In this document: positions 19,413-36,540 of the stretch, piece after piece
Position numbering within the stretch: the stretch's first letter is position 1
How the letters are laid out: every line of letters begins with the position of its first letter
From: Gemmatimonadota bacterium
Lineage (GTDB): Bacteria; Gemmatimonadota; Gemmatimonadetes; Longimicrobiales; Gaopeijiaceae
Direction: 5' to 3'
Assembly: GCA_027623325.1 (NCBI GenBank)
Contig: JAQBXY010000007.1
Coordinates: forward strand, 1 to 64,000
Length of the DNA: 64,000 nucleotides
Program-made: the position numbers and the translations under genes
Notes under the pieces: generated by a model
What the model saw: the letters and a program-made list of their open reading frames with translations, nothing else
Databases searched by the model: none
What the model was told of the DNA's origin: nothing

Positions 19413-19871
19413 TTACTTCTTGATCTCGATCCTGCGGCCCTTCGACTCTGAGACCTTCGGAAGCTTGATGCTCAGCACGCCGCCTTCGAACGTCGCCTCG
19501 ACGTCCGACCCGTCTACGGTGCGCGGTAGCGTGAACGACCGACTGAACGATCCGAAGCTCCGTTCCCAGATGTGATAGCGGGCTTCTTCGTCGTCTTCCG
19601 TTCGGGTCTCGACCTTCTCTCCACTGATCGTGAGCACGTTGTTCTCGAGCTCGATCGAAATGTCCTCTTCCTTGAGTCCCGGGAGTTCGGCGGTGAGCGT
19701 CAGGGCATCGACGTTCTCCGCGACGCTAACGGGTGGAATCCAGTGGCCTTCCCGCGCACCGGGGAAGAGGGCGGTGTCGTCGAAGAGCCGACCCAAGCGG
19801 TTGGGGGCTTCATCCAGATCGCGCCAGGCGGAGAACGCAGGGCGCCGGAACGCGTATTTCATGATTGCCAT
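19413..19871 (-). CDS. small heat-shock protein, Hsp20 family
   Basis: This 152-residue ATP-independent chaperone holds unfolding proteins for refolding. The alpha-crystallin domain (about 45-145) includes AENVDALTLTAELPGLKEED, NNVLTISGEK, RYHIWERSFGSFSRSFTLP and FEGGVLSIKLPK. The C-terminal I-E-I is the IXI anchor used in oligomer assembly. ATG 19871 has a strong Shine-Dalgarno (AGGAGG, 5 nt). Upstream lie a consensus sigma-54 promoter, a pair of direct repeats and an inverted repeat near the predicted transcript start. No CIRCE element is present, so control differs from the common HrcA type. Confidence 0.93.
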   Translation of the reverse strand: MAIMKYAFRRPAFSAWRDLDEAPNRLGRLFDDTALFPGAREGHWIPPVSVAENVDALTLTAELPGLKEEDISIELENNVLTISGEKVETRTEDDEEARYHIWERSFGSFSRSFTLPRTVDGSDVEATFEGGVLSIKLPKVSESKGRRIEIKK

Positions 19872-19884
19872 GATGGCCTCCTAA

Positions 19885-19906
19885 TTGGAGTGATGTGGTA
19901 CTCCAA
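19885..19906 (-). promoter_or_regulatory. inverted repeat in the hsp20 leader
   Basis: TTGGAGT and ACTCCAA form a perfect 7-bp inverted repeat with an 8-nt spacer, ending 13 nt before the hsp20 ATG. In RNA its 3' arm (ACTCC) could instead pair with the GGAG of the ribosome binding site across the loop AATTA. It also overlaps the transcript start expected from the sigma-54 promoter. It could be an operator, a 5' stem or part of an RNA switch; none is proven. Confidence 0.45.
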
Positions 19907-19911
19907 GGTGT

Positions 19912-19927
19912 TGCAATCGCCGTGCCA
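19912..19927 (-). promoter_or_regulatory. sigma-54 (RpoN) promoter of hsp20
   Basis: On the minus strand TGGCAC (19927-19922), 5 nt, then TTGCA (19916-19912) matches the -24/-12 consensus TGGCAC-N5-TTGCA exactly, with the required 10 bp between the GG and GC dinucleotides. Transcription should begin near 19901, giving a 30-nt leader with the hsp20 Shine-Dalgarno. Such promoters need an AAA+ enhancer-binding activator. No rpoN or activator gene is in the window. Confidence 0.8.
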
Positions 19928-19941
19928 TTCTGCGCCGCTCA

Positions 19942-19993
19942 CAATACTGCCAAAATGAACGGCACCAACGAGTTAGTAGCCTCGATACTGCCA
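19942..19993. repeat. two direct repeats upstream of the hsp20 promoter
   Basis: CAATACTGCCA (19942-19952) and CGATACTGCCA (19983-19993) match at 10 of 11 positions and are offset by 41 bp, about four helical turns. They lie about 41-51 and 82-92 bp upstream of the predicted sigma-54 start. Each is followed by GGCA, giving loose TGCC/GGCA dyads. Position and phasing fit activator-binding sites. Confidence 0.5.
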
Positions 19994-20054
19994 CTTGGGC
20001 AAACGCTCACGCCCGTAGTCTGCCGTTCCGGCACGGCACGAGGAAGACGCCTCG

Positions 20055-20954
20055 TCAGACCGCCGAGGCGAGCTTTGCGGCGCCCATCGCCGGGTCTACA
20101 GCGGGCATCTCGAGTCGCACATCGAGCCCCTCGAGTGCCTCCTCCACCATGCGCCGAAGGGGTTGACCCTGCACGAGCAGCCCACCCCACAACACGAGGG
20201 GTGCGGCACCGACCCACGGACCGGCCGACACGACGGCGGCCCTTATGTGATCGACGAGGGCTCGCGCGGCCTCCGACGCGATCGCCGACGCCAACCCGTC
20301 CCCTTCCGCCGCCGCGTGGAGCACGAGCGGAGCGAGGGCTGCCACCTGTGCCTTCGACGCAGTATCGATCCAGGCAATCAAGGCATCGACGGAAGCGACC
20401 CCGCAAGCCTCTAGCAGGCCCGCCCGCATCGCTGTGGGGCCTATCCTACCATCCTCTGCCCGAGCCAGCCCCCGGAGCGCCTCGAGTCCGATCGAGTATC
20501 CGCTCCCCTCATCACCGAGAAACCGACCCCACCCTCCAGCGCGTTGGGAAACGCCACTCTGTCCCCGGGCCCAGGCAACGGACCCGGTTCCCGCGATCAA
20601 CAGGACGCCGGCGCCCTCACCGAACGCGTCGTGAAAAGCGGCCTCCACGTCTGTGCCAACGTGTACCCGCTTGGCGAGTGAGCCATCATCGAGCAGATCC
20701 ATAACCGCCCGGTTCGCGGCTTCACTTCCCGCGCCGGCGAGACCGGCCCACATCACTCGCGCGGGCAGTTCGAGCCCCGCCTGTTCAACGGCGTTCCGCA
20801 CGGCCGAGCGCACCGCGTCCGCCGCTCGGGACGGATGGTCAACGGTGACGACTGCCCCGGCGACCTCGCCTCTACCGACTTCGTTGCCCGCATCGTCCAC
20901 CGCGACCGCGCGAGCTCGCGTACCCCCACCATCGATGCCGAGAACGAACGTCAC
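20055..20954 (-). CDS. BadF/BcrA-type amino-sugar kinase (GlcNAc/MurNAc kinase-like)
   Basis: This 299-residue ASKHA-fold kinase has the phosphate-1 loop GIDGGGTRARAVAVDD at the N-terminus, the central GTDVEAAFHDAFGEGAGVLL and GTGSVAWARG, and GGWGRFLGDEGSGYSIGLEA. This is the pattern of N-acetylglucosamine kinases of the BcrAD/BadFG group, which includes the clostridial MurNAc/GlcNAc kinase MurK. GTG 20954 is chosen because it overlaps the symporter stop in a GTGA junction; the 27-codon longer frame lies inside that gene. It ends a four-gene operon of peptidoglycan-sugar enzymes, so phosphorylation of imported GlcNAc or MurNAc is the likely role. Confidence 0.82.
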   Translation of the reverse strand: MTFVLGIDGGGTRARAVAVDDAGNEVGRGEVAGAVVTVDHPSRAADAVRSAVRNAVEQAGLELPARVMWAGLAGAGSEAANRAVMDLLDDGSLAKRVHVGTDVEAAFHDAFGEGAGVLLIAGTGSVAWARGQSGVSQRAGGWGRFLGDEGSGYSIGLEALRGLARAEDGRIGPTAMRAGLLEACGVASVDALIAWIDTASKAQVAALAPLVLHAAAEGDGLASAIASEAARALVDHIRAAVVSAGPWVGAAPLVLWGGLLVQGQPLRRMVEEALEGLDVRLEMPAVDPAMGAAKLASAV

Positions 20955-22381
20955 GAGGGCTTCGGATCGAAGCGCCCTACAAGCGAACCCGTCACGAAGG
21001 TCACGGTCGAGCCAACCAGCACGTACCAGGGCCACGCCATCGCATCACGAAGGAGCGTCACAGTGCCGACGCCGACGATGACCCCGATGATGGCGGCCCT
21101 TTGCCCGGGACGGCGCGTGAAGACTCCGAGCGCGAATGCACCGAGCAGGCCGCCGTAGACGAGCGAAGCGATCCCGAGCGCGACCTCGACCGCTGACGTG
21201 CCTCGAGAGAGCGGAATGAAGAGGATCGCCCCCGCCACAAGCAACGCCGCCCACACGAGTGTGAAGACCTTGCCCGCCTTCATGATTCGAACATCGTCGT
21301 CTCGAGCTCCGACCATGGGAGCCCAGTAGTCGTACGCTGTCGCCGACGCCAGCGAGTTGATCGACGAAGACAGAGACGACATCGCCGCGGCGAAGACACC
21401 GGCAATCAGGAAGCCGGTCAGCCCGGGTGGAAGCTGCTGCACGATGAACGTCGCGAAGATCTCGTCATTGCTGTCGAACGCCCGCCCCTCGTAGAAGGCC
21501 CACAGCCCCAGTCCGACAGTGAGAAAAAGAAAGAACTGGACCATCACGACCACGCCGCTGCCGATGAGCGCTTTCTGGGCCGAGCGCTGATCGCGGCACG
21601 TGAGAAGTCGTTGCACGATGAGCTGGTCAGTCCCGTGCGACGCCATGGTAAAGACCGCTCCACCGAAGAGGCCCGCGAAGATCGTATACGGAACTGTCGG
21701 ATCGAGGGCGAAGTCGAACAGCTGCAACTTGCCCGCAGCCGAGGCGCTGGCAAATACATCGACCCACCCGCTCGGCACGAGCAGCTGCACGGCGACGACG
21801 GTCACGACCGCACCCAGCAAATACAGTCCCATCTGTACCGCGTCGACCCAGACCACCGCCTTGATCCCGCCGAAGTAGGTGTACACGACAGTGAGCACCC
21901 CGATCACGCCGATCGAAACGGGATACGGCCAGCCCGTGATCAGCGCGAGCGGAATCGCCGTCGCGAAGAGTCGCACGGAGTCGGCGAGGAGCCGGGTGAC
22001 CATGAAGATCGCTGAGGTGAATCGGCGGGCTCCCAGCCCGAACCGCTCCTCGAGCAAGGCATAGGCCGTCGTCAGCGAGCCGGCGTAGTAGGCAGGCAGG
22101 AAGAGAGTCGACACGAGGATGCGCCCCGCCAGGTATCCCAAGGTGAGCTGGAGGAACACGAGGCTGCCCGCATACGACACGCCCGGGACACTGAGGAAGG
22201 TCAGCGTGCTCGTCTCCGTGGCCACGACCGAGAGCATCACGGCGACCCACGGGAGGGAGCGGCTTCCCAGGAAGTAGTCGGTTCCCCCTTTCTGGCCACG
22301 TCCGAGCCAAGCACCCCACGCCGTGACACCCAACAGGTAGGCGATCAGCACGGCGAGATCGAGCGTAGTGAACCCGGTCAT
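20951..22381 (-). CDS. sodium:solute symporter (SSS family)
   Basis: This 476-residue membrane protein has about 13 predicted helices, beginning LAVLIAYLLGVTAWGAWLGR. SSS features include YFLGSRSLPWVAVMLSVVAT near the first helices, GGIKAVVWVDAVQMGLYL and GFLIAGVFAAAMSSLSSSIN, where the Ser-rich segment matches the family's sodium-site region. It probably imports a sugar with Na+. Because it lies between the GH3-hydrolase and amino-sugar-kinase genes, with 4-bp overlaps on both sides, GlcNAc, MurNAc or a small muropeptide is the best guess. Specificity cannot be read from the sequence. Confidence 0.85.
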   Translation of the reverse strand: MTGFTTLDLAVLIAYLLGVTAWGAWLGRGQKGGTDYFLGSRSLPWVAVMLSVVATETSTLTFLSVPGVSYAGSLVFLQLTLGYLAGRILVSTLFLPAYYAGSLTTAYALLEERFGLGARRFTSAIFMVTRLLADSVRLFATAIPLALITGWPYPVSIGVIGVLTVVYTYFGGIKAVVWVDAVQMGLYLLGAVVTVVAVQLLVPSGWVDVFASASAAGKLQLFDFALDPTVPYTIFAGLFGGAVFTMASHGTDQLIVQRLLTCRDQRSAQKALIGSGVVVMVQFFLFLTVGLGLWAFYEGRAFDSNDEIFATFIVQQLPPGLTGFLIAGVFAAAMSSLSSSINSLASATAYDYWAPMVGARDDDVRIMKAGKVFTLVWAALLVAGAILFIPLSRGTSAVEVALGIASLVYGGLLGAFALGVFTRRPGQRAAIIGVIVGVGTVTLLRDAMAWPWYVLVGSTVTFVTGSLVGRFDPKPS

Positions 22382-25300
22382 CGGTTCACCCTTGGACTGA
22401 TGGGGCGGTCGGTGATCGCTCGGACCGCGGCGTCCTGCACCGCGCGCCGAAGCGGCACGTGCTTCTGGTTACTTCGTGTCGGGTGAACACGGTTCGTAAG
22501 GAGAACCACCCAGAGATCCAACTCGGGATCCATCCAGATCGATGTCCCGGTGTACCCGGTGTGCCCGAACGCTTCATTCGTGATGAGATCGCCGCCGGAG
22601 GAGCCTTCCGTCGGAGTGTCCCAGCCGAGCGCCCGTGACGACGTCCCGTCGAAGCGCGTCGTGAACATGTCGAGCACGTCCGCATCGAGAAGACGGATGG
22701 ACTCGCGCCGGCGCACCGGGCACGGCTCACCCGCCTCGTCATCGGGAGCGCACGCCACGGCGACGCCTCTGTTCAGCATCATGCGGGCAAAGACCGAAAG
22801 ATCGACCGCAGTGCTGAACAATCCGGCGTGCCCGGCGACGCCGCCCATGGCATCCGCGTTCTCGTCGTGCACGGTCCCCCACACCATCTCGTTTCTCCAG
22901 ATGGTATCGACTTCGGTAGCGGCGATACGGGGTCGCAGCGACGCGTCGGGGCGGTAGCGCGTCTCGAGCATGCCGAGCGGATTCCACAGCCGCTCCTGCA
23001 GGAAGTCGTCGAGCGACTGACCGGAGATTTCTTCAATGACCCAGGCCAACGTCATGATGCCGATGTCGGAGTAGGCCGTCCGTTCTCCGGGAGGCATCTC
23101 GAGCGGCTCAGCCGCGGCCGCGGCCTTGTAGGCCTCCATCCCATCCATCTCGAAGTACCACGTGCGGAACGGAATCAGGCCCGTACGATGAAGCAGAAGG
23201 TGGCGTACGGTTACGTCGTTCTTTCGTACGTCACCGGCCGACCACCAGGGGAGGTACGACACCACGGGAGCATCGAGGTCCAGAAGGCCGTCGCCCACGA
23301 GCATCATGGCAGCTGTCGTCGTTCCGACCACCTTGGACACCGAGGCGAGATCGAATAGGGACGTCGGCGTCACCGGCCGCCGCGTCCCGTACTGAAGTTC
23401 ACCATATCCGCGGAGCGCCACGAGCCGGCCGCGACGACCGATCGCCACGGCGGCACCAGAGGCGGCCGAATCGGCGATCGCCGTGCGGATGATGGAGTCG
23501 ATAGCGGCGAGCCGGGTCGCGGACATCCCGACCGTCCCGGGGTCGGCCACGGTTTGACTGCGGCCCCTCGCCCCGGAGTCGCGACTCACGATGCCGGCCG
23601 CGACCAGTGGGTCGTCGACCACGAGCGTGGCCGCCCGGTCGGCCATCTTGGCTCGGTCGAGGCCGTGCCCGATGTCATGAAACGGCGGCAGAGGAATCGG
23701 CAACCGGCCTGAGATCGCCTCCTCACCAAAAAGCGCGGACAACGCTGCCCGCTGCGGCACGTCGCGATCGCCCCACGCGAGGAGATAACTTCCGACGTCG
23801 GGCACTGCGGCCAGCAGGTAGGGATTCCCAAAGGAGAGGAGAACCGTCGGTCGCACTCTCGCGCTCTCGGCCACCAGTTCCCGGAGGCGATCCGGCAGCG
23901 CCGATTCCCCCGAGCCAGCCGACGCAGAAACGTAGGCACTCACGATGACGCGATCGGCGTCTGCCAACGCTCGAGTCGCCGCCGCGTAGGCCGCTGAGTC
24001 ACTGCGTTCGTCGAGGTTGACGACCGCGAGGTCGAACACACGCTCCGCGAGCCCGGCGGCGAATGCTCGATCCGCCCAGAGCCTCATAGAAGGCGCGTAC
24101 CGGAGGTGCAGCGTCGGAGCGAGTGAACCCGCATCCATCGGGACGAGTTGATCCACGTCGCGAACGAGGGTTATCGAGCGGGTCGCGGCCGTATCGGCGA
24201 AAGCCACATGGGCACCCGATCCGACGACTTCATCGACGCGCTCGAGTGAAACGAACCGGTTCTTGTGTAAGCCAACCCGAGCCTTCAGTACGAGGAGGCG
24301 CCGTACAGACTCCTCGAGGCGACTGCGTGTGAGACGACCCTCCCCCACCGCCTCCAGGATCGCCTCGAGCGCTTCGGTGACGGCCTTGGGCGACAGGACC
24401 ACGTCCGCACCCGCTTCGATGGAGCGCACCGACGCTTCTCCGATCCCGTACATGTCCGTGATGCCCCGCATGGTGAGCGCGTCCGTGAGGAGCAGTCCAT
24501 CAAAGCCGAGGTCGGTGCGAAGGATCCCAGTCATCACTTCGGGCGAGAGAGTCGCAGGCGGGGCAGCCGGTCCGAGCACCGCCGGAAGCTGGACGTGCGC
24601 CGTCATGATCGCGTCGACCCCTTCGCGGATCGCCGCCGCGAAAGGAACGAGCTCCATCTCGTCCAGGCGAGCACGGTCCGCTTCCACCACCGGAATCCCG
24701 GTGTGAGAATCGGTCGATGTGTCGCCGTGTCCCGGGAAGTGTTTGCCCGTGGTAAAGGCACCACCGTCTCTGGCCCCTCGAACGAACGCCGCCCCGAGTC
24801 GGGCTACCAGCGCTGCGTCACCGCCGAAGGATCGAGTGGCGATGACGGGATTGTCGGGATTCGAGTTCACGTCCAAGACCGGTGCGAAGAGGAGATGTAC
24901 TCCACTCGCTCTGGCCTCCCGCGCTGTGATCCGGCCGTACTCGTACGCAAAGCGTTCGTCGCCGATGGCGCCGAATGCCATGGTCGGAGGGAAGTCCGTG
25001 CCCCCACCCTGCGGAAGCATCGACGGCAACGCGTAGGACCCGTTGATGCGCATGCCCGGGCCGCCGTTCTCGAAGTCGGCGGTGACCAGGAGCGGTACCT
25101 CGGCCACCGCCTGCAGCGCATTCAACTTGGCCACGTAGGCGTGGGGCGAACCGATCGAGGGCGACACGCCCCCGATGCGGTCATCGGCAACCCAACGTCT
25201 CAGAGGTTCGAAGTCGGGGCTGGAAGGCGCAGTGAATCCACCCGGAATCCACTCGATGATGATCTGGCCCGCGAGTTCCTCAATCGACAGCCGGGCCAGA

Positions 25301-25491
25301 GTTCGCTCGACCCAGGCGCGCCCTTCCGCATCGAGTTCAGCCGTGAGCCCCGGATCGTCTTGCGGGTCGCGATCGGCCGTCGGAGCGGGCAGGGTCACGG
25401 TCGCGGTCTGACACGACAACAGCGAGAGAGCGAGGCACGCGGCTACGGCCCTCAGCCAGTGCGCAGCCAACGAGCCGGCTTCAGCGACCAC
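22378..25491 (-). CDS. NagZ-like GH3 glucosaminidase fused to a serine hydrolase, lipoprotein
   Basis: This 1037-residue protein has a lipobox LLSC (Cys27). Residues about 50-410 are a GH3 barrel with the NagZ signature KHFPGHGDTSTDSH (250-263, Asp/His acid-base dyad) and nucleophile Asp337 in LLLTDALT. Residues about 430-610 form the GH3 C-terminal domain. Residues about 655-1030 are a class C beta-lactamase-type serine hydrolase with SVSK (717-720), YSD (807-809) and HTG (977-979). In Bacillus subtilis the separate proteins NagZ and AmiE, the latter also of the beta-lactamase superfamily, act in sequence on muropeptides; this fusion could combine both steps (inference). The GTG start overlaps the upstream gene by 11 bp. 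Confidence 0.85.
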   Translation of the reverse strand: MVAEAGSLAAHWLRAVAACLALSLLSCQTATVTLPAPTADRDPQDDPGLTAELDAEGRAWVERTLARLSIEELAGQIIIEWIPGGFTAPSSPDFEPLRRWVADDRIGGVSPSIGSPHAYVAKLNALQAVAEVPLLVTADFENGGPGMRINGSYALPSMLPQGGGTDFPPTMAFGAIGDERFAYEYGRITAREARASGVHLLFAPVLDVNSNPDNPVIATRSFGGDAALVARLGAAFVRGARDGGAFTTGKHFPGHGDTSTDSHTGIPVVEADRARLDEMELVPFAAAIREGVDAIMTAHVQLPAVLGPAAPPATLSPEVMTGILRTDLGFDGLLLTDALTMRGITDMYGIGEASVRSIEAGADVVLSPKAVTEALEAILEAVGEGRLTRSRLEESVRRLLVLKARVGLHKNRFVSLERVDEVVGSGAHVAFADTAATRSITLVRDVDQLVPMDAGSLAPTLHLRYAPSMRLWADRAFAAGLAERVFDLAVVNLDERSDSAAYAAATRALADADRVIVSAYVSASAGSGESALPDRLRELVAESARVRPTVLLSFGNPYLLAAVPDVGSYLLAWGDRDVPQRAALSALFGEEAISGRLPIPLPPFHDIGHGLDRAKMADRAATLVVDDPLVAAGIVSRDSGARGRSQTVADPGTVGMSATRLAAIDSIIRTAIADSAASGAAVAIGRRGRLVALRGYGELQYGTRRPVTPTSLFDLASVSKVVGTTTAAMMLVGDGLLDLDAPVVSYLPWWSAGDVRKNDVTVRHLLLHRTGLIPFRTWYFEMDGMEAYKAAAAAEPLEMPPGERTAYSDIGIMTLAWVIEEISGQSLDDFLQERLWNPLGMLETRYRPDASLRPRIAATEVDTIWRNEMVWGTVHDENADAMGGVAGHAGLFSTAVDLSVFARMMLNRGVAVACAPDDEAGEPCPVRRRESIRLLDADVLDMFTTRFDGTSSRALGWDTPTEGSSGGDLITNEAFGHTGYTGTSIWMDPELDLWVVLLTNRVHPTRSNQKHVPLRRAVQDAAVRAITDRPISPRVNR

Positions 25492-27412
25492 CCGCAGCCT
25501 GGACCTTCCGAGGGATCATGAGGCCGGCGCCGATCTCGAAGAGCGGAGGAATCTGAGTGGGGGACCGACCCACGATTTCCGCCTGTCCGAGAAGCGCCTT
25601 TGCCGCAGCACGCTGGCTGGCTTCTGATCCGTTCCAGGCAAGCATGTATGCCCGCACGTCAGGGAACGCCGAAATCAGATAGGGATTTCCGAACGACACG
25701 ACGACGTGGGGCACTCCAATGCGACGGAGCTGCTCGATGAAGTCGACGAGTTCGTCGGGGACGGCAACCGACCCAGAGTACGACACCGCGGTGACGTACG
25801 TACTCACGACCACGAGTGCGTTGTCGCGGGCCCCCCGCAGGACGCTCGCATACGCTTCGTCCGACGTCTCCACATCGAGTTCCACCGTCGTGAGGCGCGG
25901 ATACGTACCGCGAAGGACACCATTGAAGAAACGACCCGCGAGGACGTCGGAGGTCCGCCGGTAGGACACGGACATGACCCTCGCCGTTCGTGTGCCGGCC
26001 AATGGAATCAGTTCACCGTCGTTCTTGAGGAGCGTGATGGAGCTCTGGGCGATCCGATCGGCCACGGCGATGTGCGCGGGAATGCCAACCTGTTGGGGGA
26101 TAGCCTCGATCGGAACGAGCCGGTCCTCGTGCAGACCCAGCCCTTCCTTCGATTCGAGCATTCGTAGCACCGAGCGGTCGAGCCGTACCTCGCTGATCCG
26201 ACCACTCTGTACCGCTTCGACGATCCCCTTGATGGCCTCTTCGACGGAGGCCGGCATGAGAATTACATCCGCTCCCGCTTCGATGGCCCGCACGGCCGCT
26301 TCACTGGCATCGTGCTGCCGAGAGATCGCGTTCATGTCCATGGCATCGGTGAAGATGATCCCGTCGAAGCCCATCTGGTCGCGCAGCACGTTGGTGAGCA
26401 CCAGCGGAGAGAGCGTAGACGGTTCGGTAATGCCCCCGTTGAGCGACGGGACCGAGATGTGAGCCGTCATGATCGCACCCATGCCGGCGTCGATGGCATC
26501 CTGGAAAGGCCGAAGTTCGACCGAGTCCATTCGAGCCCGGTCGTGGCGAATCACGGGCAACGCGACGTGAGAATCGACTTCGGTGTCCCCGTGACCAGGA
26601 AAGTGTTTTCCGGTCGCGATTGCCCCGTTCTCCTGGACCCCGCGGATGAAGGCCAGGCCCATCTTGGAGACACTCGTGGCATCCCCTCCGAACGACCGGA
26701 CGTTGATGATCGGGTTATCCGGATTGTTGTTGACGTCCAGGACCGGCGCGAAGGGAACGTGGATGCCGACCGATCGTGCTTCGAGCGCCGTGATGCGCCC
26801 CATTTCATACGCGAGGCGCTCCTGTCCCGTAGCACCGACAGCCATGAGCGTGGGAAAGTCGGTCGCGCCCCCGAGGTCGATGGTGCCCGGCATGTGGATG
26901 GCACCCCGCATACGAAAGCCCGCGCCCGTCTCGAGGTCGGCCCCTACCAGGAGCGGAATCCTGGAATGCCGCTGGAGGTCATTGAGCTTGGCCGCCACTT
27001 CGAAGGGCGTGCCAACCGACATGACGAGCCCGCCGATTCCACTTTCCTCGATGTACGTGAGCACCCGGTCATGACTAGCGGATCCTTCGGGTGCAAAGTC
27101 ACCCAACACCCACGGCATGATGAGCTGACCCGCCTTCTCGGCCACGGTCATCTCATCAAGTGTTCGCAACGCCCAACTCCGCGGTTCAGGCGCAGGGAGT
27201 GGGTCGGCGGCGACCTCCAGAATGGCTACGCTGTCGAGCGCAGCGTCGAGTGTTCGAGCGACTTCGGAGGCCTCTGGAGAACGAGACTCGTCGGGCGGCG
27301 TGGGAGTACCCGAGCCCGAAAACAGGCCGCAAGCCGCCGCTCCGAGCGGAAACAGCGCGACGGTCAACGCCCGTATCATCGGGCCGGCATGGATCCCTAA
27401 TCTCTCGGTCAT
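25481..27412 (-). CDS. NagZ-like GH3 beta-N-acetylglucosaminidase, lipoprotein
   Basis: This 643-residue protein has a lipobox GAAAC (Cys28). The GH3 barrel (about 80-430) carries KHFPGHGDTEVDSH (269-282) and the nucleophile Asp356 in IIFTDAMDM; a GH3 C-terminal sandwich follows. This fits retaining exo-beta-N-acetylglucosaminidases that cut GlcNAc from MurNAc. It is a paralogue of the downstream fusion but lacks the serine-hydrolase part. It heads the operon nagZ2, nagZ fusion, symporter, kinase and is divergent from namZ across a 70-bp gap. Start ATG 27412; an ATG at 27379 nearer the signal peptide is also possible. Confidence 0.87.
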   Translation of the reverse strand: MTERLGIHAGPMIRALTVALFPLGAAACGLFSGSGTPTPPDESRSPEASEVARTLDAALDSVAILEVAADPLPAPEPRSWALRTLDEMTVAEKAGQLIMPWVLGDFAPEGSASHDRVLTYIEESGIGGLVMSVGTPFEVAAKLNDLQRHSRIPLLVGADLETGAGFRMRGAIHMPGTIDLGGATDFPTLMAVGATGQERLAYEMGRITALEARSVGIHVPFAPVLDVNNNPDNPIINVRSFGGDATSVSKMGLAFIRGVQENGAIATGKHFPGHGDTEVDSHVALPVIRHDRARMDSVELRPFQDAIDAGMGAIMTAHISVPSLNGGITEPSTLSPLVLTNVLRDQMGFDGIIFTDAMDMNAISRQHDASEAAVRAIEAGADVILMPASVEEAIKGIVEAVQSGRISEVRLDRSVLRMLESKEGLGLHEDRLVPIEAIPQQVGIPAHIAVADRIAQSSITLLKNDGELIPLAGTRTARVMSVSYRRTSDVLAGRFFNGVLRGTYPRLTTVELDVETSDEAYASVLRGARDNALVVVSTYVTAVSYSGSVAVPDELVDFIEQLRRIGVPHVVVSFGNPYLISAFPDVRAYMLAWNGSEASQRAAAKALLGQAEIVGRSPTQIPPLFEIGAGLMIPRKVQAAGGR

Positions 27413-31210: not shown

Positions 31211-32080
31211 TCAGCCGGCTTTCGCCGCGTCCCTCGTCGCTTCGATGCGCGCCAGCAACAGATCGGAAAGCCGCCGGGTCACCGGCCCCACCCGGCCGTC
31301 TCCCACGGCACGACCGTCGACTTCGACCACGGGGCGTACTTCACCCGTCGTTCCCGTGAAGAAGAGTTCCTCCGCATCAATCAACTCCTCGACCTGAATG
31401 GGCCGCTCCTCCACCGGTACTCCCGCCGCGTGAGCTTCTTCGAGGACGACGCCACGAGTAATTCCGGGCAAGATGTGTCCAGTCTTCGGATGGGTCACCG
31501 CCGTACCGCCGAAGACGCCCCAGAAGTTCTGGTGAGCCCCCTCGATCGCGACGCCATCGCGGACCAGAATGGCATCGTCGGCGCCGACGTCGCGCGCGGC
31601 CTGAAACGCCATCGCGTTCGGCAGCAGGCAGATCGTCTTCACGTCGACCCTACTCCAGCGACGATCCGGCACCGTGATGGCCCGGAAGCCACGGTTCCAT
31701 ACTTCGTCGGTCGGCCGACTCCACGCTTTCGCGGACGCGAAGATCGTGGGCGTAACATCACCCTCGGGAAAATAGTGCGTGCGCGGCGCCGCGCCCCGGG
31801 TGATCTGCATATACACCATGGATCGCTCGGCATTCTCGAGCCCGTTTCTCGTCAGGAGCTCCCGGTGCATAGCCTCCAGCGACTCCACGTCGTAGGCGAT
31901 CCGAATCCACTCCAGGCCTCGGGCCAAACGGGCCAGATGCCGATCGAGTCCGAAGGGAACCCCTCCGTAGAAGGGGGTGACCTCGTACAGGCCATCTCCC
32001 AACAGGAATCCCCGATCGTCAACGGAGATCATGGCTTCCGACTTCGGAATGAAGGCTCCGTTCAAAAAGACCGTCGTCAT
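31211..32080 (-). CDS. dat: D-amino-acid aminotransferase (fold-type IV PLP enzyme)
   Basis: This 289-residue protein transfers amino groups between D-amino acids (D-Ala, D-Glu, D-Asp) and 2-oxo acids. The PLP lysine is in DVKTICLLPNAM, matching the DxK...LLPN pattern of D-alanine transaminases. The substrate segment YMQITRGAAPRTHYFP matches the family's RG-AP-R-H carboxylate trap, which separates it from branched-chain aminotransferases. MISVDDRGFLLGDGLYEV is typical near the N-terminus. ATG 32080 is chosen over the longer frame to 32188, which would include a terminator-like hairpin. Next to murein-salvage genes it could consume D-Ala and D-Glu from stem peptides. Confidence 0.85.
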   Translation of the reverse strand: MTTVFLNGAFIPKSEAMISVDDRGFLLGDGLYEVTPFYGGVPFGLDRHLARLARGLEWIRIAYDVESLEAMHRELLTRNGLENAERSMVYMQITRGAAPRTHYFPEGDVTPTIFASAKAWSRPTDEVWNRGFRAITVPDRRWSRVDVKTICLLPNAMAFQAARDVGADDAILVRDGVAIEGAHQNFWGVFGGTAVTHPKTGHILPGITRGVVLEEAHAAGVPVEERPIQVEELIDAEELFFTGTTGEVRPVVEVDGRAVGDGRVGPVTRRLSDLLLARIEATRDAAKAG

Positions 32081-32140
32081 CGTCACACCTGTCTTGGAAG
32101 GATTCGCCTCGGCGAAAGATGCGGAGGGCTCACGCGCGCG

Positions 32141-32170
32141 AAAGGGGGAGGCCCTGTCGGACCTCCCCCT
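32141..32170 (-). terminator. hairpin after pspA
   Basis: AGGGGGAGG (32143-32151) and CCTCCCCCT (32162-32170) form a perfect 9-bp stem with a 10-nt loop, 46 bp past the pspA stop. On the minus strand only TTT follows, so it is a moderate intrinsic terminator. It separates pspA from dat. Confidence 0.55.
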
Positions 32171-32215
32171 CGCTTGGGGCCTCTGCACGAGGTTCCCTAG
32201 CTCCCATGTCAGGAA

Positions 32216-33085
32216 TCAGCTTTCGGCTTGCTTCCCTTCGAGCCTGTCGAACTCCGAAAGAAGTTGCGCCTCGGGGATGTGGTCGGCTTCCGCATCGGAA
32301 ACTTCCTCCACGTCGGCGTCCTGGACTCCCGGAGTAGCACCGTCCGTCTGACCCTTCGCACCCGCTTCGAGCTGCCTAGGTTCCGCACCGGTGGAGGGCG
32401 GAGCGATGAGTCCCATATCGGCCTTGAGCGCCAGCAACTGGTCCTCGACGTCGACACCACCTGAACCGGCCTCGAGCCGCAGGAAGTCGTGCTCAAGCGA
32501 GTCGCCCGTCAGTTCGGCGGAAACCTCTGCGTGGGCGACACTCTGGCGCTCCTCCTCCTCGATCTTGTCGGCCATCCGATTGAACGCCTCGAAGGCTGAA
32601 GTATCGGAGAGCCCCGACATCGTCTCGTGAATCCGACGCTGCGCCTGGGCCCTTTTCTGCTTCGCAACCAGAAGATTCCGCTTCCGCTTGGCTTCCTCGA
32701 TCTTGTCGTTCAGCTGCCGCAACGAGCCCTTGAGCTTCTCGGTCTCGCCGGCCTGAGCCTCCCAAGTCTGTTGGAGCACGTGCGCTCGCTCGGTGTGTTC
32801 CTTCTGACGAATCAGCGCCTGCTTGGCCAAGTCGTCGCGGCCTTCCTTGACCGCGAGCATCGCCCGGTGCTGCCAATCGCGAGCCTGCTTGACCTCGGCC
32901 TCCATCTGCGACTTGAGCTTCCGCTCATCGGCAATCGCCGCCGCAACCTCGCGCTTCGCTTTGGCGAGTTGGTCACGCATGTCGAGAATGATCTGATTCA
33001 GCATCTTCTCGGGGTTTTCAGCCCGAGAGATGAGATCGTTGATGTTCGACTTGATGACCGTTGAGAGCTTCGTGAAGATCCCCAT
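32216..33085 (-). CDS. pspA: PspA/IM30 family membrane-stress protein
   Basis: This 289-residue protein begins with the amphipathic membrane-binding helix MGIFTKLSTVIKSNIN. LISRAENPEKMLNQIILDM follows, then a long coiled coil (about 25-200) rich in Lys, Glu, Gln and Arg, as in PspA/Vipp1/IM30 proteins that form ESCRT-III-like coats and protect the membrane. The last about 80 residues are acidic and less ordered, longer than in E. coli PspA (222 residues). It starts 3 bp after the YbjN-like gene, so the two form an operon. No pspF or pspBC was seen. Confidence 0.9.
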   Translation of the reverse strand: MGIFTKLSTVIKSNINDLISRAENPEKMLNQIILDMRDQLAKAKREVAAAIADERKLKSQMEAEVKQARDWQHRAMLAVKEGRDDLAKQALIRQKEHTERAHVLQQTWEAQAGETEKLKGSLRQLNDKIEEAKRKRNLLVAKQKRAQAQRRIHETMSGLSDTSAFEAFNRMADKIEEEERQSVAHAEVSAELTGDSLEHDFLRLEAGSGGVDVEDQLLALKADMGLIAPPSTGAEPRQLEAGAKGQTDGATPGVQDADVEEVSDAEADHIPEAQLLSEFDRLEGKQAES

Positions 33086-33088
33086 CGT

Positions 33089-33490
33089 CTATGCCTTCGC
33101 TCCGTTGACGGCGAGATCCCGGATTTTCTGCATTTGAGTGGCGGCTGCGATTTCGATCGACTCCATGGAAGCCTGAAGTTCGAGGAAGTCCAGCGTCTCC
33201 AGTTCGAGGGTATCGCTAAGAATCAGGTCGTCGCCCTCGATCCCATACGCACCGTGGACGATTTCCGTGGCGTTCAACTCAAGGAGCGTACGGTACAGTG
33301 CTTTGCTCGAATCGTTGTCCGCCGGCATGTCCATGACCTTCATGCGAATGATCAGAAGGTTGTCGGTGCAGTGGACGACCAACGGGAGCCCGCTGGTCCC
33401 ACCGCGAGTAAGAAACATCCCCTCATCGATCTCGTCGTAATCGAGATCCATGCGGATGAGGAAGCTTTCGAGATCCTCTCGGCTTACCAT
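33089..33490 (-). CDS. YbjN-like protein of unknown function
   Basis: This 133-residue cytoplasmic protein has alternating helices and strands (MVSREDLESFLIRMDLDYDE, LPLVVHCTDNLLIIRMKVMD, ALYRTLLELNATEIVHGAYG) like the YbjN/type III chaperone-like fold; this is a pattern judgement. ATG 33490 is preferred to 33541 because of a Shine-Dalgarno GGAG 6 nt upstream. It precedes pspA by 3 bp, so a role linked to membrane stress is possible. Upstream on the minus strand TACAAT resembles a -10 box but lies very close to the start. Confidence 0.65.
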   Translation of the reverse strand: MVSREDLESFLIRMDLDYDEIDEGMFLTRGGTSGLPLVVHCTDNLLIIRMKVMDMPADNDSSKALYRTLLELNATEIVHGAYGIEGDDLILSDTLELETLDFLELQASMESIEIAAATQMQKIRDLAVNGAKA

Positions 33491-33618
33491 GAACGTCTCC
33501 GTATTGTAAGGCTGCTGCCGCAGCGAAAGGCCGGCATTCATCGAATCCCTACGGCGCCACCAGAACCGCAGTTTCCTACGGCCAATAAGGTAAGCGCTGC
33601 CGCCCGACGTCGCACCGG

Positions 33619-36540
33619 TTACGACAAAAGGGCTGCCAGGTGCTGACCCGTATAGGACGCTTCGTTGGCCGCGACCGTTTCCGGCGTGCCCTGAACGATG
33701 ATACGTCCCCCGCCCGCGCCACCTTCAGGGCCGAGGTCGATCACCCAGTCCGCAGTCTTCACGACGTGCAGGTTGTGCTCGATGACGACGACGGTATTTC
33801 CACGATCGACGAGTTGGTGAAGAACGTTGAGAAGAACCCGCACGTCCTCGAAATGGAGGCCGGTGGTGGGCTCATCCAGGATGTACATCGTGTTGCCCGT
33901 CGCCCGCTTGGAAAGCTCGCTCGCCAACTTGACTCGCTGGGCTTCACCACCCGACAGGGTCGTCGCCGACTGGCCTAGATGCACGTAGCCCAGCCCCACG
34001 TCATGGAGCGTCTCGAGCTTCTGCTTGAGACGTGGAACCGCGTCGAAGAAGTCGAGCGCATCTTCGACCGTCATGTCGAGGACGTCCGCGATGTTCTTCC
34101 CTTTGTAGTACACGTCGAGGGTTTCGCGATTGTACCGACGACCTCGACAGACGTCACACGGCACGTAGACGTCGGGGAGAAAGTGCATCTCGATCTTGAC
34201 GAGACCGTCGCCCTGGCACGACTCGCAGCGGCCACCCTTCACGTTGAAGGAGAAGCGCCCGGGACCGTAGCCCCGCATCTGTGACTCGGGGAGGTTTGCG
34301 AACAAATCCCGGATGGGCGTGAACAGGCCGGTGTACGTCGCCGGGTTCGAGCGAGGGGTCCTGCCGATGGGAGACTGATCGACGTCGATCACCTTGTCGA
34401 TGAGATCGATGCCCTCAATCGTGTCGTGCGAAGCCGTGACCAGCTTGCTCCGATAGAAATGCCGCGCCAACGCATGGTAAAGCGTGGAGTTGACCAGCGT
34501 GGACTTTCCGGAGCCGCTGACACCGGTCACACACAAGAAGGTGCCGAGCGGGAAACTCGCATCGAGGTGCTGAAGGTTGTGGCCGCGCGCGCCCCGAACG
34601 GTAACGGCCCGCGCCGGATCGACCGGCCGCCGCTTCGCCGGCACTTCGATCGCGCGGTCGCCTCTGAGGTAGGCGCCTGTCAGGGAACGCTCCGAAGCCA
34701 GGACGTCGGCCAATGTCCCGCTGGCGACGACCTCACCTCCATGGCGACCGGCCCCCGGTCCCAGGTCGACGACGTAGTCCGCCATCCGGATGGTCTCCTC
34801 GTCGTGCTCCACAACGATGACGGTGTTGCCGAGGTCGCGCAGCCGCTCCAGCGTGGTGAGGAGGCGAGCGTTGTCGCGTTGATGCAGCCCGATGGAAGGC
34901 TCGTCCAGAATGTAGAGCACGCCGACGAGGCGGCTGCCGATCTGAGTGGCAAGGCGGATTCGCTGGCCCTCGCCTCCGGACAGCGACCCCGCCGATCGAC
35001 CGAGCGTCAGATACTCCAGCCCGACGTCCCGTAGGAAATGCAACCGCTCCGCAACTTCTTTCAGGATCGGGCCGGCGATAGCGCGGGGGAGCGGTGCGTA
35101 CCTCGACTTCTTGCCCTTCTTCTTGGCGCCGCCATCTCCTTCGACGGGGACCTCCTCAAAGAAGGTGGAGGCGTCGCCGATGGACATCTCCACGATGTCT
35201 CCGAGGGAGCGACCGGCAATAGTGACCGCTCTCGAGGCGTCCTTCAGCCGAGTGCCCGAGCACGCGGTGCACGGAAGGGTCGACATGTACTCGTCGAGTT
35301 GGGAGCGCACCGTGTCGGAAGAGGTCTCTCGGTAGCGGCGGGCCACATTCTCGAGCACGCCTTCCCAGTGATCCTCGTAGTGTCCGTCGAATTTCCCCGT
35401 CCCGGACCGGTACGGGAATCGGATCTTCATCCCCTCGGAGCCATGGATAATCGCGTGACGGACCTCCGGTTCGAGGCGCGACCAGGGCGTACTCGGATTG
35501 AACTCGTAAGCTTCCGCCAGCCCGACGATCACGGAACGCCGCAGGTGTCCTGATGGGTCGCCCCAGGGAAGAATGACGCCCTCGAGGATCGTGAGGCTCG
35601 GATCGGCCGTGAGGAGGTCCGGATTCACTTCTTTTCGAGTGCCGAGCCCACCACAATCCTCGCACGCCCCGTACGGCGAATTGAAAGAGAATTGGCGTGG
35701 CTCAAGTTCGGCGAGACTCGTGCCACAGTTGTCACACGCATAGTGCTCGCTGAAGAGGTGCGGGAGGGGGTCACCCTTCTTCCGGTGTTCGAGCACCTCG
35801 ATGATCCCGTCGCCGGTGCGCAGCGCGGTTTCGACGGAGTCGGCGATACGGTCCCGATCGGCCTCACGGATCACGAGTCGGTCGACGACGACCGCGATGT
35901 CGTGGTTCTCATATCGATTCAGCGAAGGCGGCTCGGTAAGGTCGTAGGTCTCGCCATCGACAAGCACCCGTACGAACCCCTCCTTCCGGGCCTTCTCGAA
36001 GAGATCCCGGAATTCACCCTTCCGGCCCCGAACGAGCGGGGCGAGCACTTCGACGCGGGTTTCTTCGCCGATCGCAAGAAGTCGCTCGACGATCTGAGTC
36101 GCCGATTGACGGACGACGGGCTCACCGCACTCCGGGCAGTGCGGGGTGCCAGCCCGAGCCCAGAGCAGGCGCAGATAGTCGTAGATCTCCGTTACGGTGC
36201 CGACGGTCGAACGCGGATTCCGACCGACCGTTTTTTGCTCGATCGAGATCGCCGGGGACAGTCCTTCAATGGAGTCGACGTCGGGCTTCTCCATGAGTCC
36301 GAGAAACTGACGCGCATAGGCGGACAACGACTCTACGTATCGACGTTGTCCCTCCGCATAGATCGTGTCGAACGCGAGCGACGACTTCCCCGACCCCGAC
36401 AGCCCCGTGATGACAACCAGGCGCTCCCTGGGTAGCTGCACGTGCACATTCTTGAGATTGTGCTCGCGCGCGCCCCGCACGATGAGCATTTCATCGGGGC
36501 GGCGGTTGTTTCCGGTCGAGTCGGCGGGAGGCTGAGGCAT
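33619..36540 (-). CDS. uvrA: excinuclease ABC subunit A
   Basis: UvrA is the damage-sensing ATPase of nucleotide excision repair. The 973-residue protein has two ABC cassettes: Walker [14 protein letters not shown] and [12 protein letters not shown], signatures [13 protein letters not shown] and [13 protein letters not shown], and Walker [15 protein letters not shown] and [14 protein letters not shown]. Zinc modules are CDNCG...CEDCGG and CESCQGDG...[11 protein letters not shown] 36540 adds 17 residues before [14 protein letters not shown], where many homologues begin. A promoter only 8 nt upstream of ATG 36540 suggests a leaderless message from that codon. No uvrB or uvrC is nearby. Confidence 0.96.

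Follow-up and report, generated by a model that had tools for sequence, protein, structure and literature searches.

The hsp20 locus and its -24/-12 site

The window analyzed here, a stretch of 64,000 nucleotides, corresponds to contig 15 of the 3.35-Mb draft genome of a Gemmatimonadota bacterium, which is assembled in 60 contigs. On its minus strand, it carries an hsp20 gene (19413 to 19871), an open reading frame encoding a 152-amino-acid small heat-shock protein (PF00011; E value, 2.5e-22). The Shine-Dalgarno sequence AGGAGG is read at 19877 to 19882 on the same strand, and the sigma-54 promoter motif TGGCACGGCGATTGCA (-24/-12) lies at 19912 to 19927 (minus strand), 40 nt ahead of the ATG at 19871. 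TGGCACGGCGATTGCA is an exact match, with the TGGCAC-N5-TTGCW context and a GG-GC spacing of 10 bp, which bears out the agreement with the RpoN consensus noted in the preliminary description of this DNA. From sigma-54 promoter geometry, 12 nt past the -12 C at 19913, transcription is predicted to start at about 19901 (minus strand), so that the leader would be about 30 nt long, as had been proposed. The promoter and the operators described below are all within intergenic DNA. The upstream gene, encoding a BadF-type kinase, is on the same strand as hsp20 and ends 183 bp ahead of it. It belongs to a likely muropeptide or amino-sugar recycling cluster (20055 to 27412, minus strand; Pfam), which also encodes a sodium:solute symporter and two tandem glycoside-hydrolase-family-3 (NagZ-like) proteins, one with a fused beta-lactamase-family domain.

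A scan of the window for -24/-12 sites, with one mismatch allowed, gives 2 matches compared with 0.39 expected, and TGGCAC-N5-TTGC occurs 8 times genome-wide, compared with 6 times for the backward pattern. The bare motif is thus not enriched, so that TGGCACGGCGATTGCA alone is weak evidence, and its significance comes from its conservation across related hsp20 loci. A search for the Hsp20 protein covered 59 related genomes, and 30 loci were compared over their upstream regions. GGCAY-N5-YTGC is found upstream of hsp20 in 25 of the 30 in the sense orientation and in none of the 30 in the antisense or reversed form, and dinucleotide shuffles of the same regions give a mean of 0.20 and a maximum of 2. 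At these loci, the spacer and the leader have diverged, and the distance from the promoter to the start codon ranges from 39 to 124 nt, which argues that the conservation of the promoter is more than overall sequence similarity. By this conservation, the site is confirmed as a real -24/-12 element and is taken as the predicted hsp20 promoter. A chance match to the -24/-12 consensus, with a housekeeping promoter, or transcription running on from the kinase gene, accounting for hsp20 expression, would be in keeping with the unenriched genome-wide counts and with the position and strand of that gene, but it is extremely improbable in view of the strong positional conservation between diverged flanks, the intergenic location of the promoter and operators, and the absence of any sigma-70-like site from the hsp20 region, in which a scan for sigma-70 promoters and terminators found neither.

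A perfect inverted repeat, TTGGAGT-N8-ACTCCAA (19885 to 19906), lies directly upstream of the hsp20 ribosome-binding site; it was dropped as a candidate element because none was seen in relatives. Its position would suit an RNA thermometer in the leader, with most of the control of hsp20 acting posttranscriptionally. However, about a quarter of the repeat is upstream of the predicted start, the predicted leader folds no better than its shuffles (z, -0.8), an Rfam scan for thermometers gave no match, and the leaders of the relatives are divergent in both length and sequence, which makes thermometer control very unlikely here.

Operators of hsp20 and dnaK and the division with HrcA

Upstream of the promoter, three copies of a putative operator were found, the full form of which is the 15-bp inverted repeat CTGCC-N5-GGCAG. 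The proximal copy, CGTTCATTTTGGCAG (19947 to 19961, minus strand), is 19 bp upstream of -24 and has a perfect right half and a degenerate left half, and the second, TTGCCCAAGTGGCAG (19988 to 20002, minus strand), and third, GTGCCGGAACGGCAG (20020 to 20034, minus strand), are 60 and 92 bp upstream of -24, each with a perfect GCC-N5-GGC core. The half-site TGRCAG occurs 44 times in the sense orientation in the hsp20 upstream regions, compared with 11 times in antisense and 3.8 times in shuffles. In the relatives, it ends 18 to 19 bp (n = 20) or 60 to 62 bp (n = 14) before -24, and half-sites at 92 to 94 bp support the third operator as well. Across the hsp20 and dnaK promoters, the operator distances follow a 10.5-bp period, with a resultant of 0.85 compared with 0.68 at 10.0 or 11.0 bp, a statistic that is descriptive only because the loci are related to each other. 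These arrays would therefore provide the upstream activator sites that are characteristic of sigma-54 promoters. The operator centers at hsp20 are at about -53, -94, and -126 from the predicted start, and the putative operator near -53 is nearer than is usual for sigma-54 enhancers, which counts against the circuit proposed below.

The same arrangement is found at dnaK. dnaK was searched in 33 genomes, and 28 upstream regions were scored for the promoter; 25 of them have a sigma-54 promoter, compared with 0 in antisense and 0.2 in shuffles. The dnaK gene of this genome has the promoter CGGCATGGGGATTGCA, with CCGCCATTTTGGCAG and CCGCCAATCCGGCGG upstream. GCC-N5-GGC cores at dnaK are centered about 25.5 and 56.5 bp upstream of -24, the nearer one nearly matching the proximal operator of hsp20 in position. 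Pattern searches over 121 family genomes, which required only an operator and a promoter and named no gene, recovered the same two genes. The strict search gave 15 matches, 14 at hsp20 and 1 at dnaK, compared with 1 for the backward control. The looser search gave 36 matches, compared with 16 for the control; of the 30 examined, 27 are ahead of hsp20-family genes and 1 is ahead of dnaK, and every hsp20 match has a gap of 19 or 20 bp, though 14 to 24 bp was allowed. The full palindrome at 22 to 52 bp from the promoter gave 26 matches compared with 1 control match, and 24 of these are at dnaK. A promoter match at L046/L138 was considered as autoregulation of the activator gene on contig C27 and was rejected because it lies inside the upstream gene and has no operator. 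In genus g41 (L234 to L247), the dnaK operator is 29 to 33 or 39 bp ahead of GGCA, instead of 48 to 51 bp, and many of these distances differ from 50 bp by whole helical turns.

groES in these genomes has the CIRCE element of HrcA about 60 to 80 bp ahead of its start, whereas a full CIRCE was present ahead of dnaK at 0 of 29 loci, and none was seen upstream of the related hsp20 loci compared. A -24/-12 site was found at 0 of 15 groES loci in the window's family. In two sister families (f2 and f3; L259 to L282), 6 of 10 groES loci have both a -24/-12 site and CIRCE, with the former 145 to 170 nt before the start and upstream of CIRCE. From this distribution, either a loss or a gain of dual sigma-54 and CIRCE control of groES seems to have occurred between families of the order. 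In the window's family, hsp20 and dnaK form one predicted regulon with a common sigma-54/operator arrangement, and groES is left to HrcA/CIRCE. Among other chaperone genes, near which the preliminary description had proposed a scan for this promoter, those covered in this genome's family are dnaK, with promoter and operators, and groES, with CIRCE. Two observations on these loci also count against the proposed circuit. G001 and G002, which belong to the same genus and keep the candidate activator, have no detectable hsp20, although the dnaK gene of G002 retains a sigma-54 site and a half-operator. In addition, no such promoter was found at the lon, clpPX, hslUV, and activator gene loci examined.

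rpoN and the candidate activator

The preliminary description had made its promoter depend on an rpoN gene in the genome, and this gene is present (PF04552; E value, 2.2e-62), broken at a contig border. Both the activator-interacting N terminus and the RpoN-box domain are found: the start of contig C25 encodes the DNA-binding domain, and the N-terminal part is cut off by the start of contig C53. The ends of C25 and C53 overlap and are nearly identical, so that a single rpoN gene broken by the assembly is the simplest reading. The genome encodes five full-length enhancer-binding proteins. The activator implied by the promoter is not as obscure as had been supposed, since one of the five candidates stands out.

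This candidate is encoded on contig C46 of this genome (G000) at about 31973 to 33619 and combines an AAA+ domain (PF00158; E value, 8e-71) containing the GAFTGA loop with a long linker and a Fis-type helix-turn-helix (PF02954; E value, 3.7e-12). The C46 protein has no match to the receiver domain PF00072, and its N terminus is weakly receiver-like (hhalign probability, 76%; identity, 16%). This pseudo-receiver has no aspartate at the expected phospho-accepting position, so phosphorylation of the C46 protein is unlikely. The protein is present in all 8 Gemmatimonadota genomes examined, and G026, a genome with the hsp20 arrangement, has just two full-length activators, one of which is of the C46 type. 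In G000, G132, and G133, the gene faces clpP-clpX-lon-engB in convergent orientation, with hslUV nearby; in G026, clpX and engB adjoin the activator gene, lon was not called in a stretch that contains Ns, and hslUV is absent from the stretch. In G000, G001, and G002, dnaK shares a contig with the activator gene, at a distance of about 12 kb. A putative orthologue of the C46 protein is also present in 5 of the 6 Bacteroidota genomes that carry the arrangement, but without the pseudo-receiver of the Gemmatimonadota candidate. These orthologues share a linker helix with the C46 protein (EREILYQILFDLRREVNELK compared with PELEFVFRTLVELRVDMDDL), most of them have the same recognition helix, ERTLYRKI, and they group with the C46 protein in the tree at 94/92, just below the cutoff of 95. 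No orthologue was found in the Bacteroidota draft genome G150, though htpG in that genome has operator and promoter; this gap and the tree support short of the cutoff both weigh against the proposed circuit.

The four other full-length activators of the genome carry receivers, and the promoter and operators as described could instead serve a phosphorylatable response regulator, such as the C2 or C27 protein, with two-component input, for example in response to envelope stress or starvation. The C2 protein belongs to a group of activators (group A) that is also shared with Bacteroidota, with 100/100 in the tree, and the only full activator found in G150 is of this type. However, G026 lacks group A, none was found in G145, G147, and G148, and the members in G146, G149, and G150 have lost the DNA-binding helix-turn-helix. 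The C27 protein has no Pfam HTH_8 match and was not found in Bacteroidota, and its neighborhood, as examined, contains no chaperone or protease gene. Two-component control by one of these regulators is therefore rather unlikely, and the losses and absences of group A make the C46 protein the best candidate activator, a choice that rests on association and is probably correct. The Bacteroidota group A proteins at L173, L175, and L213 end directly after the AAA lid, without a DNA-binding domain.

The reading favored here is a sigma-54 circuit of hsp20 and dnaK with the C46 protein as its most likely activator, to which we give about two chances in three. In this circuit, whose promoter, operators, spacing, common regulon, rpoN gene, and candidate activator are each documented above by sequence comparison, RNA polymerase carrying sigma-54 would transcribe hsp20 from 19912 to 19927 and would be switched on by an AAA+ enhancer-binding protein on the CTGCC-N5-GGCAG array. 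The operators, about 27, 68, and 100 bp upstream of -24 when measured to their centers, would lie on one face of the helix, and the activator may contact the sigma-54 holoenzyme from these close sites. The same activator would control dnaK, and groESL would stay with HrcA/CIRCE. The C46 protein is predicted to bind the operators and, because it has no phosphorylatable aspartate, is probably controlled by a partner protein or by the protein-folding state rather than by a kinase. Unfolded protein may release the C46 protein, upon which Hsp20 and DnaK would be made, and heat or protein damage would thus induce both genes.

Comparison with Bacteroidota and other heat-shock systems

Bacterial heat-shock genes are generally described as controlled by sigma-32, HrcA, CtsR, or RNA thermometers. 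Of the HrcA/CIRCE regulon, the same genomes have CIRCE at groES, and this element is absent from the dnaK promoters scanned. The preliminary description had suggested a parallel to E. coli ibpB in another phylum. A sigma-54 hsp20 promoter is supported, and the comparisons support predicted sigma-54 control of hsp20 by a dedicated activator in a phylum other than that of E. coli, but a nearer precedent is the sigma-54 regulon of Bacteroidota. ibpB likewise encodes a small heat-shock protein and has a sigma-54 promoter, as cited in PMC4316790. ibpAB is additionally under sigma-32, and the operator array, the sharing with dnaK, and the dedicated candidate activator indicate a regulon in Gemmatimonadota, unlike ibpB. 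In Myxococcus xanthus, the NtrC-like regulator HsfA of the HsfBA/lonD system activates a heat-shock gene (PMC9109919 and its reference 22). HsfA receives its phosphate from the hybrid kinase HsfB, whereas the C46 candidate has no phospho-accepting aspartate, and the target genes differ. Both ibpB and HsfA-lonD are thus looser parallels to the hsp20 circuit.

The pattern ATTTTGRCAG-N14-21-TGGCAC-N5-TTGC was scanned over 84,980 species genomes of GTDB and matched 38 stretches, including 13 from Gemmatimonadota and 8 from Bacteroidota. Eleven of the 13 Gemmatimonadota stretches have a readable downstream ORF, and all 11 are ahead of hsp20; the remaining two (L114 and L119) match contigs of L051 and L061, whose sites precede hsp20. 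Six of the 8 Bacteroidota stretches are ahead of chaperone genes (groES, 2; dnaK, 2; hsp20, 1; and htpG, 1), so that the same operator and promoter precede groES, dnaK, hsp20, and htpG in Bacteroidales. Matches in other phyla (Herpetosiphon, Acidobacteria, Omnitrophota, and others) were set aside as chance matches, since no chaperone is among the ORFs examined.

The FCB group also includes Bacteroidota, and NCBI taxonomy places Gemmatimonadota within it. Sigma-54 promoters of chaperone genes are already known in Bacteroidota. In one flavobacterium, Flavobacterium psychrophilum, PMC9723704 reports mapped starts with sigma-54 motifs ahead of groESL, lon, dnaK, grpE-dnaJ, htpG, clpB, and skp and notes three PF00158 proteins without assignment. 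For Bacteroidota and Planctomycetota, a survey from 2025 predicts sigma-54 chaperone clusters; it does not mention Gemmatimonadota (PMC12316311). The accessible portions of these papers name no activator or enhancer, PMC9723704 giving neither the operator nor the activator of the Bacteroidota regulon. In the literature searched, Gemmatimonas, heat shock, and sigma-54 are joined only by a taxonomic mention, and no heat-shock or transcription start data were found for Gemmatimonadota. Within this literature, there is no precedent for the operator and its spacing rule, for the division of targets with HrcA, or for the candidate activator.

The regulons of Bacteroidota and Gemmatimonadota share the promoter class, the operator, and chaperone targets, and they differ in that the Bacteroidota regulon covers groESL, whereas in the Gemmatimonadota family groES is under CIRCE and hsp20 and dnaK are under sigma-54. 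Both may descend from a common ancestral sigma-54 heat-shock regulon with GCC-N5-GGC enhancers and one orthologous, phosphorylation-independent activator, a tentative reading to which we give slightly less than even odds. An operator, a spacing rule, and a single best candidate in two phyla turn the control of these chaperone genes into a directly testable question. If unfolded protein rather than a kinase regulates the activator, sigma-54 transcription would respond to a new kind of input, and if one orthologous activator does control an ancestral regulon, that protein would add a third general way of controlling heat shock in bacteria, next to sigma-32-type factors and HrcA-type repressors. 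The activator gene of Bacteroidota had been expected beside groESL; at L100, the upstream neighbors form a ribosomal protein operon instead.
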